A program made the translations under genes and the position numbers. The notes under the pieces were generated by a model. It made no database searches, was not told the DNA's origin, and was given only the letters and a program-made list of their open reading frames with translations. Below, in pieces: positions 17,213 to 57,371 of a DNA stretch of 64,000 bases (position 1 is the first letter of the stretch; each line of letters starts with the position of its first letter). Source of the DNA: Kitasatospora phosalacinea (lineage in GTDB: Bacteria; Actinomycetota; Actinomycetes; Streptomycetales; Streptomycetaceae); assembly GCF_000716545.1 (NCBI RefSeq), contig NZ_JNWZ01000002.1:62001-126000 (forward strand). Reading direction: 5' to 3'.

Positions 17213-19501
17213 ATGCAGGAAGACCTCCTCGGGTTCGACGACCCCCACGCGCAGTACGGCCACGCCCCCGTCGGAGCGGACGCGGTGCTGGCCGGGCTCG
17301 ATCCCGAGCAGCGCGCCGTCGCCACCGCCCTGCACGGCCCGGTCTGCGTGCTGGCCGGTGCCGGCACCGGCAAGACCCGGGCCATCACCCACCGGATCGC
17401 CTACGGCGTGCGCAGCGGCGTCTACCACCCCGCGCAGGTGCTCGCCGTCACCTTCACCGCCCGCGCGGCCGGCGAGATGCGCGGCCGGCTGCGCCAGCTC
17501 GGGGCGGACGGCGTGCAGGCCCGCACCTTCCACTCCGCCGCGCTGCGCCAGCTCCAGTACTTCTGGCCGCGCGCCGTCGGCGGCGACTTCCCCCGGCTGC
17601 TGGAGCGCAAGGTGCAACTGGTCGCCGAGGCGGCCGGCCGCAGCGGCCTGCGCGTCCAGCGCACCGAACTGCGAGACCTGACGGCCGAGATCGAGTGGGC
17701 CAAGGTCACCCAGGTCGTCCCCGACGACTACCCGGCCGCCCTCGCCAAGTCCGGCCGCGAGGCCCCGCGCGACCCGGCGGAGACCGCCCGGGTCTACGCC
17801 GCCTACGACGACCTCAAGCGCCAGCGCGGCCTGATCGACTTCGAGGACGTGCTGCTGCTCACCGCCGCCATCCTGGAGGAGCGGCCGGAGGTCGCCGCCC
17901 AGGTCCGCGCCCAGTACCGGCACTTCACCGTCGACGAGTACCAGGACGTCTCCCCGCTCCAGCAGCGCCTGCTGGAGCAGTGGACGGGCGAGGACGGCGG
18001 CGCCAGCCTCTGCGTCGTGGGCGACGCCAGCCAGACCATCTACTCCTTCACCGGCGCCACCCCCGACCACCTGCTGAACTTCCGGCACCGGCACCCCGAG
18101 GCCACCGTGGTCAAGCTGGTCCGGGACTACCGCTCCACCCCGCAGGTGGTGCACCTGGCCAACGGGCTGCTCGCGCAGGCCCGGGGCCAGGCCGCCCAGC
18201 ACCGGCTGGAGCTCGTCTCGCAGCGCGAGGCCGGCCCCGAGCCGGTCTACCGCGAGTACCAGGACGAGCCCACCGAGGCCGAGTCCACCGCCCGCCTGAT
18301 CCGCGACCTGCTCGGCACCGGCGTCCGGGCCAGCGAGGTCGCCGTGCTGTTCCGCACCAACAGCCAGTCCGAGGTGTACGAGCAGGCCCTCGCCGACCTC
18401 GGCATCGCGTACCAGCTCAAGGGCGCCGAGCGGTTCTTCGAGCGCCCCGAGGTCCGCGAGGCCGGCGTCCTGCTCAAGGGCGCCGCCCGGGCCGCCGACG
18501 ACCCGCTGACCTCCGGCGCGCCCGACCTCGCCGCCCAGGTCCGCGCCGTGCTCGCCACCCGCGGGTTCGCGGCCACCCCGCCGGCCGGCTCCGGCGCCGT
18601 CCGCGAGCGCTGGGAGTCGCTGAACGCGCTGGTGCGCCTCGCCGAGGAGTTCGAGGCCGCCCGCACCGCGGCCGGCGAGAGCGCCGACCTCGCCGCCTAC
18701 GTCGCCGAGCTGGACGCGCGGGCCGCCGCCCAGCACGCCCCCGCCGTCGAGGGCGTCACGCTGGCCTCGCTGCACGCCGCCAAGGGCCTGGAGTGGGACG
18801 CGGTGTTCCTGGTCGGCCTGAGCGAGGGCACGCTGCCGATCATCTACGCCAAGACCGACGAGCAGATCGAGGAGGAGCGCCGGCTGCTGTACGTCGGCGT
18901 CACCCGGGCCCGCCGCTTCCTGACCCTCTCCTGGTCGCTCTCCCGCTCCCCGGGCGGCCGCGCCTCCCGCAAGCCCACCCGCTTCCTGGACGGGCTGCGG
19001 CCCGGCTCCTCCGCCCCCGGCGCGCGCACCCGGGGCGGGCGCGGGGGCGTCGAGCCGGGCGCGGAGCGCTCCGCCGCGCGCCGGGCGCGCGGCCCGGTCA
19101 AGTGCCGGGTGTGCGACCGCACCCTGACCGACGCCGTCGAACGCAAGCTCCGCCGCTGCGAGGGCTGCCCCTCCACGATGGACGAGGCGCTGTACGAGCG
19201 GCTGCGCGAGTGGCGCTCGGTCAAGGCCAAGGAGCAGGGCGCCCCGGCCTACGTGGTGTTCACCGACGCCACGCTGACCGCCATCGCGGAGGACGTGCCG
19301 GGCAGCCTCGCGGAGCTGTCCAGGATCTCCGGGGTCGGCGCCATGAAGCTGGACAAGTACGGCTCCGACGTGCTGTTGTTGTGTGCGGGGGAGAGTCCGG
19401 AGCCGGTGGGGGAGACCGAGCGGGAGCCGGAGGCCGCCCCGTCCGAGGGCGAGGCCGAGAACGGGGCCGAGAACTCACCTGAGAACTCGCCGGAAAAATA
19501 G
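17213..19501 (+). CDS. uvrD2: DNA helicase UvrD2 with HRDC domain
   Basis: 762 residues of SF1A helicase. Walker A is GAGTGKTRAI (about residues 48-57), Walker B DEYQDVSPLQ (about 242), then GDASQTIYSFTGA. The C-terminal motor motif SLHAAKGLEWDAV is near residue 520. After an Arg-rich linker comes a four-cysteine motif (CRVC...CEGC, about 631-652) and an HRDC domain ending LSRISGVGAMKLDKYG. The tetracysteine-linked HRDC is the hallmark of actinobacterial UvrD2. The acidic tail is low-complexity. The ATG at 17213 follows GGATGGAGG; the open frame back to 16673 is only read-through. Confidence 0.93.
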   Translation: MQEDLLGFDDPHAQYGHAPVGADAVLAGLDPEQRAVATALHGPVCVLAGAGTGKTRAITHRIAYGVRSGVYHPAQVLAVTFTARAAGEMRGRLRQLGADGVQARTFHSAALRQLQYFWPRAVGGDFPRLLERKVQLVAEAAGRSGLRVQRTELRDLTAEIEWAKVTQVVPDDYPAALAKSGREAPRDPAETARVYAAYDDLKRQRGLIDFEDVLLLTAAILEERPEVAAQVRAQYRHFTVDEYQDVSPLQQRLLEQWTGEDGGASLCVVGDASQTIYSFTGATPDHLLNFRHRHPEATVVKLVRDYRSTPQVVHLANGLLAQARGQAAQHRLELVSQREAGPEPVYREYQDEPTEAESTARLIRDLLGTGVRASEVAVLFRTNSQSEVYEQALADLGIAYQLKGAERFFERPEVREAGVLLKGAARAADDPLTSGAPDLAAQVRAVLATRGFAATPPAGSGAVRERWESLNALVRLAEEFEAARTAAGESADLAAYVAELDARAAAQHAPAVEGVTLASLHAAKGLEWDAVFLVGLSEGTLPIIYAKTDEQIEEERRLLYVGVTRARRFLTLSWSLSRSPGGRASRKPTRFLDGLRPGSSAPGARTRGGRGGVEPGAERSAARRARGPVKCRVCDRTLTDAVERKLRRCEGCPSTMDEALYERLREWRSVKAKEQGAPAYVVFTDATLTAIAEDVPGSLAELSRISGVGAMKLDKYGSDVLLLCAGESPEPVGETEREPEAAPSEGEAENGAENSPENSPEK

Positions 19502-19532
19502 TTTGCGCGCCGCGTGTACGGCGCAATAGCCT
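19492..19532 (+). promoter_or_regulatory. wblC promoter with AT-rich element next to the -35
   Basis: The A-rich GAAAAATAG at 19492-19500 touches the -35 candidate TTGCGC (19503-19508). An 18-nt spacer leads to TAGCCT (19527-19532) as -10. WhiB7/WblC activates promoters with a short A/T-rich stretch just upstream of a -35, and wblC is known to activate itself, so this is the expected autoregulated promoter. The element overlaps the uvrD2 stop codon. Confidence 0.6.
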
Positions 19533-19660
19533 GCCGGAGCGGTCAAGGGGACGAGACCGCGAAGCTCGCAGAGGGCCTGTTTCTGCGTGCGCTGACCATC
19601 AACCAGATATCGGAGCCCGGGCGACCGGGAGCCGCGAGACGCCGAGAGGAGGCGAGTTCA

Positions 19661-20077
19661 GTGGAGACCAAGATGATCACCAAAGTGACCGAAATGACGA
19701 CCACCCTCGCCATGCCCTCGCGCGTCAGCGCTTCGGGTCTGGGTCTCGGTACGGCCGGCGGCAACGCCGGAGCCCCGCTGTCCGCGCACTGCCTTGTCAG
19801 TGATCTCGGCAATGCTGTGGGCACCCGTGTCGAGGCAGGTCTCTCCCGTGACTGGGCGACGTTTGTCGACGGCATTTCGCTGTCCGACGAGCGACCGACC
19901 AAGGCATCGAAGGCAGTAGCGGCAGAAGCCCGCCATGGGCGCTATGCGGCCGTCATCGGTGCCGGAACCGACAAGCAGGACCAGCAGATCTCCCTGGCCG
20001 AGGTCGCCGTTCGCGGCGCCGAGGCCGGCCGGCAGCAGGCTTTCCGCGGGCCTGGACCCTGGAGCGAACGACCCTGA
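19661..20077 (+). CDS. Leader ORF (uORF) of wblC, 138 codons
   Basis: An open frame from GTG 19661, behind a strong AGAGGAGGCGA, to TGA 20075-20077. The 138-residue product has no recognisable domain. By hand count 34 codons end in A or T, far more than in flanking genes, so it is not under normal coding pressure. Its 3' end (20041-20064) encodes the 5' half of an RNA structure that competes with the terminator at 20105-20140. This suggests its translation controls wblC transcription; the peptide itself may be incidental. A longer in-frame reading from 19514 lacks a ribosome binding site and would start before the predicted transcript start. Confidence 0.55.
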   Translation: METKMITKVTEMTTTLAMPSRVSASGLGLGTAGGNAGAPLSAHCLVSDLGNAVGTRVEAGLSRDWATFVDGISLSDERPTKASKAVAAEARHGRYAAVIGAGTDKQDQQISLAEVAVRGAEAGRQQAFRGPGPWSERP

Positions 20078-20116
20078 CTGAGCCAGTCACGGGCGGTGCC
20101 TCCAGGGCCGCGGAAA
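20041..20116 (+). promoter_or_regulatory. Predicted antiterminator in the wblC leader
   Basis: TTTCCGCGG (20041-20049) pairs fully with CCGCGGAAA (20108-20116). CCCTGGAG (20057-20064) pairs fully with CTCCAGGG (20100-20107). The 17 bp consume the whole 5' arm of the terminator, so the two folds are mutually exclusive. Inside lies a hairpin (20072-20080 with 20084-20093, one bulged C) that contains the leader-ORF stop codon. A ribosome at that stop would break the antiterminator; one stalled earlier would let it form. Confidence 0.65.
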
Positions 20117-20150
20117 CCCAGTAACCGGGTTCCGCGGCCCTTCTGTTTTG
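20105..20150 (+). terminator. Intrinsic terminator (attenuator) in the wblC leader
   Basis: GGGCCGCGGAA (20105-20115) pairs with TTCCGCGGCCC (20130-20140) and is extended by three G-C pairs past one bulged A. The loop is 7 nt and TTCTGTTTT follows directly. A U-rich tract after the stem is unusual in this window and marks a true intrinsic terminator, 28 nt after the leader-ORF stop and about 190 nt before wblC. Confidence 0.85.
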
Positions 20151-20341
20151 TCCGGTACGCAAGACCTACCCAGGCCCCACGGGGCCTCCGGCCCGATCCG
20201 CACCGCGGAACGGCCGGATCCACATCGAAGACGAGGAAGACGCCCACAGTGTCCACGGTCATCACACCGCCGCCCCTCCCGTCCGTACCGACCGACAAGA
20301 CCGTCAAGGCCAAGCAGGCCGACCCCCCGGAGGTAACACTC

Positions 20342-20617
20342 ATGCAGCTCACCGCCATCGACGAGGCTGACTCGCTCGGGCTCCCCATCCCGTGCCGGGC
20401 CTTCGACCCGGAGGTCTTCTTCGCGGAGACCCCGGCCGATGTCGAGTACGCCAAGTCCCTGTGTGGCACCTGCCCCGTGAAGGCCGCCTGTCTCACCGGC
20501 GCCATCGAGCGCCGCGAGCCGTGGGGCGTCTGGGGCGGCGAGCTCTTCGTCCAGGGCGTCGTCGTCGCCCGGAAGCGTCCGCGTGGCCGTCCGCGCAAGA
20601 CCGAGGTCATGGCGTGA
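20342..20617 (+). CDS. wblC: WhiB-family regulator WblC (WhiB7)
   Basis: 91 residues. Four cysteines (C18, C41, C44, C50) bind the [4Fe-4S] cluster. The family GVWGG turn follows, and an RGRPRK AT-hook near the C-terminus is specific to WblC/WhiB7. It works with the primary sigma factor to activate intrinsic resistance to ribosome-targeting antibiotics. The ATG at 20342 was chosen because GGAGGTAA lies 8 nt upstream and the length matches WhiB7 (92 residues). GTG 20249 behind GAGGAAG would add 31 residues and is possible. Location downstream of uvrD2 agrees with other streptomycetes. Confidence 0.93.
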   Translation: MQLTAIDEADSLGLPIPCRAFDPEVFFAETPADVEYAKSLCGTCPVKAACLTGAIERREPWGVWGGELFVQGVVVARKRPRGRPRKTEVMA

Positions 20618-21255: not shown

Positions 21256-22326
21256 ATGTGGCCCCCCCTCCCGCTCGGCGAGAAGCTGCGCACCGTCCTC
21301 GGCCCGCCGCGCAAGGTCCGCCGCCTGGTCAGCAGCCCGCGCTCCCGGGTCTGGCGGGCCGAACTCTCCGGCCGACCGGTGGTGGTCAAGCAACTGGTCG
21401 ACTCGCCCGGCGCCGACGAACGGTACGCCCGCGAGGCCGCCGCGCTGGCCCTCGCCGCCCGGCCCGGCCGCCCCGGCCGGACGGTGGTGCCCGCCCTGCT
21501 CGGCACCGACCCGGGCCGCCGCCTGCTGGTGATGGAACGCCTGGAGGACCGCACCCCGGGCCCCGGATGGCAGACCGACTACGCCACCGCACTGGCCGGG
21601 CTGCACGCCAGCGCCCCCGCCGACCTCGACGACCTGGCCGGGACGGCCCCCGGCACCGACCTGCCCGCCTGGACCGGCCCGACCGGGCGCGACCTCGGCT
21701 GTTTCATCGCACTGGCCCGGATCCTCGACGTGCCCGCCCCGCCCGGTGCCCGGGCCGAGGCCGAGGCGCTGATCGACCGGCTCTCCGCCACCCCCGTCCG
21801 GCACTCGCTGCTGCACGGCGACCCCTGCCCCGGCAACGACCTGCACACCGCCGACGGCGTCCGGTTCGTCGACTTCGAGCAGTCCGCCCTCGGCCCCGGC
21901 GCGGTCGAGTTCGCCTACCTGCGGGTCGGCTTCCCCACCTGCTGGTGCTCCACCGCCCAGCCCGCCGCCGCCCTGGCCGAGGCCGAGGCCGCCTACCGCA
22001 CCGCCTGGCACGCGGCCACCGGCACCGCGGCCCCCACCACCGCCGAGCTCGCCGACGCCTGCGCGGGCTGGCTGATCCGCGGCGACGCCCTCGTCCCCAA
22101 GGCCGAACGCGGCACCGCCGACCACCTGGCCCGCCTCCACCACGGCGACTGGACCTGGGGCAACGCCACCGCCCGCCGCCGCCTCCTGCACCGCCTGCGC
22201 GTCGTCGCCGAACTCGCCGGCCCCGACACCGCGCTCCCGGTCTTCGGCCGCTTCTGCGCGACCCTCGCCACCCGCGCCCGCGCCACCTGGCCCGCCGCCG
22301 GCCCGCTCCCCGCCGAACGGACCTGA
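21256..22326 (+). CDS. Aminoglycoside phosphotransferase/choline kinase-fold protein
   Basis: 356 residues of the protein-kinase-like APH fold. The N-lobe has the ATP-contacting Lys in PVVVKQLV (about residue 43), and a hinge lies near LLVMERLED. The catalytic loop is HSLLHGDPCPGNDL (about 179-192), and the metal-binding Asp is in FVDFEQSALG. The substrate is unknown; a small-molecule kinase is more likely than true aminoglycoside resistance. It lies downstream of the wblC terminator with about 120 bp of own upstream region, so coregulation with WblC is not shown. Confidence 0.75.
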   Translation: MWPPLPLGEKLRTVLGPPRKVRRLVSSPRSRVWRAELSGRPVVVKQLVDSPGADERYAREAAALALAARPGRPGRTVVPALLGTDPGRRLLVMERLEDRTPGPGWQTDYATALAGLHASAPADLDDLAGTAPGTDLPAWTGPTGRDLGCFIALARILDVPAPPGARAEAEALIDRLSATPVRHSLLHGDPCPGNDLHTADGVRFVDFEQSALGPGAVEFAYLRVGFPTCWCSTAQPAAALAEAEAAYRTAWHAATGTAAPTTAELADACAGWLIRGDALVPKAERGTADHLARLHHGDWTWGNATARRRLLHRLRVVAELAGPDTALPVFGRFCATLATRARATWPAAGPLPAERT

Positions 22327-57204: not shown

Positions 57205-57320
57205 GATGCCGTGTCGCACACCGTCGGCAGGTCCTCGGACTGCGCGGGCGTCGCTGCAGCCCGCTCACCGTTGCGGGGCAGTCCCGGGTTCGCACCGGAT
57301 TCCCCTGCGTCGACAGCGAG
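57205..57320 (-). ncRNA. Cobalamin (B12) riboswitch in the nrdAB leader
   Basis: On the minus strand the conserved aptamer blocks appear in order: GGGAATCCGGTGCGAA, then GGGACTGCCCCGCAACGGTG, and the B12 box AGTCCGAGGACCTGCCG followed by GGTGTG. About 170 nt of leader separate it from nrdA, with a CCGGTC/GACCGG stem but no U-tract, so the switching mechanism is not evident. Class I nrd operons of streptomycetes are known to be B12-repressed. The rest of the 57034-57594 gap holds no gene. Confidence 0.93.
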
Positions 57321-57324
57321 AGTG

Positions 57325-57371
57325 AGCATACATGTTGTGGCGGCTGGAGCTGGAAGCACCAGATGTAGTAG
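57325..57371 (-). promoter_or_regulatory. nrdAB promoter with tandem NrdR boxes
   Basis: CTACTACATCTGGTGC (57371-57356) and CCACAACATGTATGCT (57340-57325) resemble NrdR boxes, and their starts are 31 bp apart, the usual three-helical-turn spacing. TATGCT inside the second box is a good -10, placing the RNA start at about 57318, right at the riboswitch 5' end. NrdR would repress when dATP is high. Confidence 0.75.

Follow-up and report, generated by a model that had tools for sequence, protein, structure and literature searches.

What controls the expression of wblC, the gene of a WhiB7-type regulator, in Kitasatospora phosalacinea? The gene (20249..20617, on the plus strand, as are all features below unless stated otherwise) lies in a stretch of 64,000 nucleotides (nt) of contig NZ_JNWZ01000002.1, hereafter the window, whose nearest named neighbours are Kitasatospora. 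It is preceded by a long leader for which an original prediction, made from the letters alone, had proposed two mutually exclusive folds around the stop codon of a leader open reading frame (uORF). Transcription attenuation is already published for the whiB7/wblC leaders of Streptomyces and Mycobacterium, and we consider it highly probable that the wblC leader of the window works by ribosome-mediated attenuation.

An intrinsic terminator (20105..20150) is located between the uORF and the gene, with a stem at 20105-20140 followed by TTCTGTTTTG, the T-rich tail being at 20141-20150. The fold of 20100-20150 has an energy of −30.8 kcal/mol with a z-score of −5.44, and none of 200 shuffles was equally stable, so that the U-tailed terminator of the original prediction is real. 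Two upstream segments compete for this region. Arm A (20041..20049, TTTCCGCGG) is exactly complementary to 20108-20116 (A'), and arm B (20057..20064, CCCTGGAG) is exactly complementary to 20100-20107 (B'); because both complements are exact, the 3' side of the antiterminator (20100..20116) is fully covered. This side overlaps the 5' arm of the terminator, and the antiterminator pairing excludes the U-tailed terminator at 20105-20140. Both segments had been described as complementary to the terminator arm; the complementarity stands, while for B five of the eight partner bases (20100-20104) precede that arm. None of 20000 dinucleotide shuffles of 20000-20099 contained both complements in this order; that of A alone turned up in 40 and that of B alone in 150. 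The motif CCTGGA is present twice, at 20051..20056 and at 20058-20063, so that in this species the upstream copy is an alternative to B as a partner for 20101-20106.

The stop of the uORF had been placed in the loop between the two antiterminator halves. The location is right; the loop, however, is not open, being itself folded as a hairpin, H2 (20069..20095, −12.4 kcal/mol), which the original prediction had missed. H2 forms the apex of the antiterminator, and the stop codon of the uORF (20075-20077) belongs to its 5' arm. It is conserved, and it shows the strongest covariation of all the parts.

The uORF (19661..20077) has 138 codons, with a GTG start and a TGA stop. GTG 19661 is the likely start, as a Shine-Dalgarno sequence, AGGAGG (19647..19652), ends 8 nt before it, which confirms the strong ribosome binding site proposed for this frame. 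Loci of the family were grouped as Kitasatospora-side (L003-L018, L083 and up) and Streptomyces-side (L019-L082), each group containing some differently named records. The sequence around the Shine-Dalgarno, GACGCCGAGAGGAGGCGA, shows a conservation of 95% or more in each of the two clades. A short complementary pair, CGCC...GGCG, flanks the Shine-Dalgarno within 19638-19655, a stretch conserved to the same degree in both, and the Shine-Dalgarno may be presented in the loop of a hairpin there.

Among 150 wblC loci examined, the exact CCCTGGAG was found in 146; the remaining four (L012, L013, L014, L025) carry near variants (CCCTGGGA, TCCTGGAG) and were excluded from the uORF counts. In all the 146 loci scored, the position of the uORF stop is identical, 6 codons past the CCC of arm B, the frame is open for at least 113 codons, and a start with a Shine-Dalgarno-like tetramer occurs 90-175 codons ahead of the stop. 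A WblC-type gene is found directly 3' of the leader in 150/150 loci, on the basis of tblastn and leader matches. A search for a terminator together with the stop was passed by 145 of these 150 loci (L010, L131, L139, L146 and L149 were lost), by 20/20 further loci of the family and by 57 of 60 loci outside the family but within the class (L187, L215 and L221 were lost), the 57 being kept as the distant set. The terminator core of distant loci is often GGCCGCGGA...TCCGCGGCC; in some of these loci (e.g. L186, L204, L209, L222, L227, L228) the longest-open-frame rule may choose a neighbouring stop.

The leader core was found in 70/70 genomes of the genus and in 199/200 genomes, representing 17/17 genera, of the family. 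For the class, we built a covariance model (R1) from an alignment (A1) of 46 sequences, 30 of them taken from the 34 distant loci in which the duplex energies of B and of H2 each lay below −9 kcal/mol, the other 16 being hand-picked family loci. The model matched 116/148 class genomes and gave no match in 32/148. Of the best matches tabulated, 103/104 lie 36-283 nt upstream of a WblC match on the same strand, and the proportion is 75/76 when the 28 tabulated genomes that supplied model sequences are set apart. The other 12 of the 116 matched genomes are outside the table, and G120, G163, G173 and G186 have no WblC match at 1e-20. The genome of the window contains one full-length match (E 2e-18) and three partial ones (E up to 1). 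The covariance model was also used to look for this attenuator in front of other genes; the possibility was rejected, as the six candidate matches (the second ones in G142, G210 and G170, and those in G163, G186 and G197) looked like plain terminators by eye.

Covariation was assessed at the level of whole helices with a tree-aware test, carried out after negative pair-by-pair scans, in which the substitutions of each column were re-placed on the tree (300 nulls; family, n = 128; class set, n = 57). The excess pairing of H2 was reached by 0/300 nulls in the family and by 0/300 in the class set. In the class, that of B was reached by 4/300 nulls and that of the terminator likewise by 4/300. The partners of the same species pair better than those of other species in 44/57 distant rows for B (p 1.5e-6) and in 41/50 for H2 (p 6e-6), H2 being scored for 50 of the 57, and in 155/165 family rows for H2; these p values are too small because the rows are related. 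For A the preference is weak, with 35/57 distant rows (p 0.012) and 81/165 family rows. Compared with shuffled partners, the B duplex is stronger in 49/57 distant loci and the stop hairpin in 48/50. In the MAFFT alignment of the 46 sequences, the antiterminator forms in 72.6% of cells, compared with 68.5% after shuffling (reached by 0/500) and 29-58% when slid, and its 62 double-change cells were also reached by 0/500 shuffles. Changes on both sides of a pair are present in 8/9 pairs of H2, 3/7 of B and 1/8 of A. In B, CCTGGAG/CTCCAGG is replaced by CCTCGAGG/CCTCGAGG (L175, L184), CCTTTGAG/CTCAAAGG (L212) and CCACGGAG/CTCCGTGG (L225). The original prediction had named arms at 20041-20064 without conservation or covariation as the outcome that would speak against it; the arms are conserved, and B covaries across the class.

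The competition between the two folds was then followed by folding transcripts of increasing length. Starting from 20020 and with no ribosome, at a 3' end of 20132, A is paired at 0.93, the two B registers at 0.48 each and H2 at 0.99, with the terminator at 0; the terminator takes over at 20141 (0.74). Starting from 19880, B is paired at 0.63 at 20125 and 0.88 at 20132, H2 at 0.99, with the terminator at 0.47 once the 3' end is at 20141. When forced over 20020-20150, the antiterminator has −65.0 kcal/mol and the terminator −68.2 kcal/mol, a gap of 3.2 kcal/mol, and the choice between them would therefore be kinetic. With 20026-20056 masked, as by a stalled ribosome that includes A, B and H2 alone hold off the terminator up to 20132 (terminator at most 0.06). 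With 20058-20088 masked, as by a ribosome at the stop, B and H2 are lost from the fold.

Several observations weigh against this model in its simple form. Under the mask at the stop, A is still paired at 0.83-0.98 (3' ends 20117-20132) until the 3' arm of the terminator is made, and the alternative CCTGGA copy (20051-20056) still pairs at 0.98; thus, the claim that a ribosome at the stop breaks the antiterminator holds for B and H2 and, for A, would depend on a steric effect. Such a ribosome may exclude A sterically, since A would have to close a loop that leaves 1 nt free on one side of the ribosome and about 12 on the other. When folding begins at 19880 with no ribosome, the pairing of A is lower, with 0.66 at 20125 and a fall to 0.13 at 20132. 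In the 128 family sequences 99% of the cells of A are paired, and its signal was reached by 166/300 tree-aware nulls; as A hardly varies, the family is uninformative for it. Moreover, A in the form TTCCGCGG occurs chiefly within the family: class-wide, 62.8% of its cells are paired (n = 46), and outside the family TCCGC, CGGGTTCC or AGGAGTCC are complementary to other portions of the terminator arm. Within the family, B shows no covariation (p 0.99 for the partner swap; 14/300 tree-aware nulls), and in the class set a shift of B by −1 yields a higher excess than the proper register (0.362 vs 0.232), from which it follows that some rows of this set are misaligned. In the 46-sequence alignment, whose 30 distant sequences were selected for good B and H2 pairing, the 12 pairs changed on both sides were reached by 45/500 shuffles. 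Finally, the pair-by-pair scans gave no significant pair in the whole leader (best E 12.6), in the uORF hairpin described below (best E 0.67) or in the core region (best E 0.34, outside the proposed pairs).

Considering these data together, we propose the following sequence of events. RNA polymerase would transcribe the uORF first and then arms A, B and H2. With no ribosome at the 3' end of the uORF, H2 would form first and would zip B with B' and then A with A'; the zipped antiterminator would tie up 20100-20116, block the terminator and let wblC be read. A ribosome following closely and reaching the stop would cover about 20058-20088, opening H2 and hiding B, and, the antiterminator being left without nucleation, the terminator at 20105-20140 would form. 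Slow or arrested translation anywhere on the long uORF, caused by an antibiotic or by amino-acid shortage, would thus raise wblC, and the raised WblC would then activate its own promoter (19494-19532). We infer the order of folding, the occupancy and footprint of the ribosome and the steric loss of A from the folds. Induction and termination are assumed by analogy, being taken from the literature on Streptomyces and Mycobacterium.

This type of control was the one originally predicted and it stands, both conformations being conserved, B and the terminator showing excess pairing in the class, and the mechanism being published for whiB7/wblC leaders according to passages of PMC11550727, PMC10727445 and PMC13393426. 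In the passages cited, translation of the uORF favours the terminator, and drugs, likewise amino-acid starvation, favour the antiterminator (PMC11550727); WhiB7 genes of actinobacteria typically have a leader of this sort, with an antiterminator that uses overlapping uORF and terminator sequence (PMC10727445); and passages of PMC12421871 and PMC13393426 agree with attenuation of whiB7/wblC leaders. As far as those citing passages allow a comparison, the attenuator of S. coelicolor and Mycobacterium shares with ours the uORF, the intrinsic terminator, an antiterminator made from uORF and terminator, the orthologous gene and the WblC promoter motif, and differs in the host genus. Attenuation in these leaders was reportedly described by Lee, Lee and Roe in 2022 (Mol Microbiol 117:179), as the citing papers have it, and some of them cite Burian and Thompson 2018 as well.

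Other actinobacterial leaders are close in part. With ilvBNC/ilvB1 and other amino-acid attenuators (PMC13236596, PMC10272879) the wblC leader would share a ribosome at the stop that prevents antiterminator formation, its mask covering some 26 nt in the passage of PMC13236596. As described there, the ilvB1 leader has regulatory codons (LVVI), whereas no run of one kind of amino acid was seen by eye in the translation of the 138-codon wblC uORF. With no run of regulatory codons by eye, and with wblC not being biosynthetic, the leader is not of the amino-acid-operon type (trp, his, ilv). The leaders of the ABCF genes are5sc and tiaA of S. coelicolor also carry a uORF in a 5' leader able to form terminator and antiterminator; according to passages of PMC12421871 they differ in their very short uORFs (MLV, MVGDDDISG) and in drug stalling at the start codon.

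Is it the peptide, rather than the ribosome, that matters? The nascent uORF peptide (e.g. its end AFRGxEPWSxxx) might sense a drug or metabolite and stall the ribosome as in erm/tnaC leaders, in place of a leader that responds to the general speed of translation. The ratio of nonsynonymous to synonymous polymorphism (pN/pS) is 0.18-0.30 in the arms and the last 12 codons, whose conservation such an arrest would explain; however, this conserved end is largely the RNA arms themselves, from which the 0.18-0.30 is inseparable. The ratio is 0.85-0.89 in the first part of the uORF, 0.74-0.75 at 19886-19972 and 1.16-2.80 in the linker, which argues against a selected peptide, and the distant locus L192 reads arm B in another frame (CTT GGA, compared with TGG AG elsewhere) with a pairing retained. 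In other families 32/57 uORFs (L173-L232) end in Pro-Pro-x-stop, often WSPPV, and four different codons are in use for the proline at codon −3. This ending, which would fit a peptide-dependent stall, is absent from the uORF end of the window, and slow translation of it could hold the ribosome at the stop in distant loci. On balance, peptide-specific arrest is very unlikely. A functional uORF protein was set aside as well, on pN/pS and on the G+C content at third codon positions (GC3), which is 0.76 in the uORF and 0.94 in wblC. Judged by these comparisons, the uORF preserves its reading frame together with some rare codons, whereas its peptide is hardly conserved, and we read it as a track for the ribosome and not as a protein gene.

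The codons of the uORF bear on a further explanation, under which the uORF would be a small gene of the usual kind followed by a terminator belonging to it, wblC would have another promoter, located beyond 20150, and the complementarity would be accidental. The uORF is long, it has a strong Shine-Dalgarno and its own promoter, and a terminator straight after a gene is normal. Nevertheless, B and H2 covary, the low GC3 is not that of its neighbour wblC, and the full element precedes wblC in 103 of the 104 tabulated genomes, the six matches elsewhere being those that looked like plain terminators. Rare codons make up 22.6% of the uORF of the window and 15.3-28.8% (mean 22%) of 133 uORFs, whereas 27 ORFs of the window selected for GC3 > 0.88 average 3.4% and do not exceed 8.4%, and wblC itself has 7.8-9.1%. 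An ordinary gene is therefore highly improbable. A relaxed codon bias alone could account for the excess of rare codons; it could hardly account for the fixed ones, namely CGA (133/133), TAT (128/133) and GCA (127/133).

A switch operated by a ligand or by an RNA-binding protein would use both folds with no ribosome, and, even if a terminator and an antiterminator alone are no proof that the ribosome is the sensor and a further hairpin may sit upstream in the uORF, we give it next to no credence, as Rfam release 15 has no family at gathering score in the leader (19480-20350; two chance-level unrelated matches, E up to 1), the stop position is fixed relative to arm B and the frame is open for at least 113 codons in 146/146 loci.

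This possible second hairpin (19903..19963) would pair GGCATCG (19903-19909) with CGGTGCC (19957-19963). It was examined in 140/165 family sequences, 123 of them unique, the 25 without a match to the search motif, which favours pairing, being left out. It is more stable than shuffles that preserve the peptide (mean z −1.56 in the 123 unique sequences; reached by no null in 30/123), and the own half pairs better than the halves of others in 3503/4920 comparisons. Its tree-aware covariation is not significant, and the sliding fold of the uORF gives a weak signal. As everything folds at this G+C content, including the local folds of distant uORFs, no claim is made for the class. The hairpin may explain several of the fixed rare codons.

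Going beyond attenuation as such, we put forward, tentatively and with more doubt than confidence, that the uORF acts as a transit timer: long, rich in rare codons and indifferent to its peptide, it would integrate the speed of translation over more than 100 codons, with its stop codon forming part of the hairpin from which the antiterminator nucleates and with RNA polymerase perhaps kept in step by the hairpin at 19903-19963. If this is true, a single RNA family, spread over the class and absent from Rfam, reads the speed of the ribosome and not a particular drug or codon. The stop-codon hairpin and the peptide-indifferent, rare-codon-rich uORF make the contrast between drug identity and ribosome speed directly testable. 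More generally, a model at the level of single bases and tested on the phylogeny indicates a way in which actinomycetes of the soil could detect translation inhibitors ahead of switching on a broad resistance programme.

At the 3' side of the leader, GTG 20249 rather than ATG 20342 is probably the start of wblC, judging from sequence comparison: its context is present in 66/70 Kitasatospora-side loci, in frame and open in 64/70, and a comparable GTG is found in 55/63 Streptomyces-side loci. The C-terminal RGRPRK of the product is presumably of the AT-hook type. At the 5' side, a WblC-type autoregulated promoter (19494..19532) consists of AAAAAT, 3 nt, TTGCGC (19503-19508), 18 nt and TAGCCT (19527-19532); it shares sequence with the stop codon of a helicase-like ORF that precedes it. 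Both the motif and its 3-nt spacing to the −35 are as reported for S. coelicolor (PMC7157823). At most 260 nt from the start of the leader ORF, the pattern was found in 67/70 Kitasatospora-side and 63/63 Streptomyces-side loci (130/133), and in 0 of the shuffled controls (one mononucleotide shuffle per leader set). From this promoter, the wblC leader would be roughly 700-800 nt long.

Just downstream of wblC, the ORF at 21256-22326 contains an HGD-type kinase motif and resembles what we take to be a protein of the aminoglycoside-phosphotransferase fold. Elsewhere in the window, a cobalamin riboswitch aptamer was detected at 57209-57335 on the minus strand, with 46 bits.

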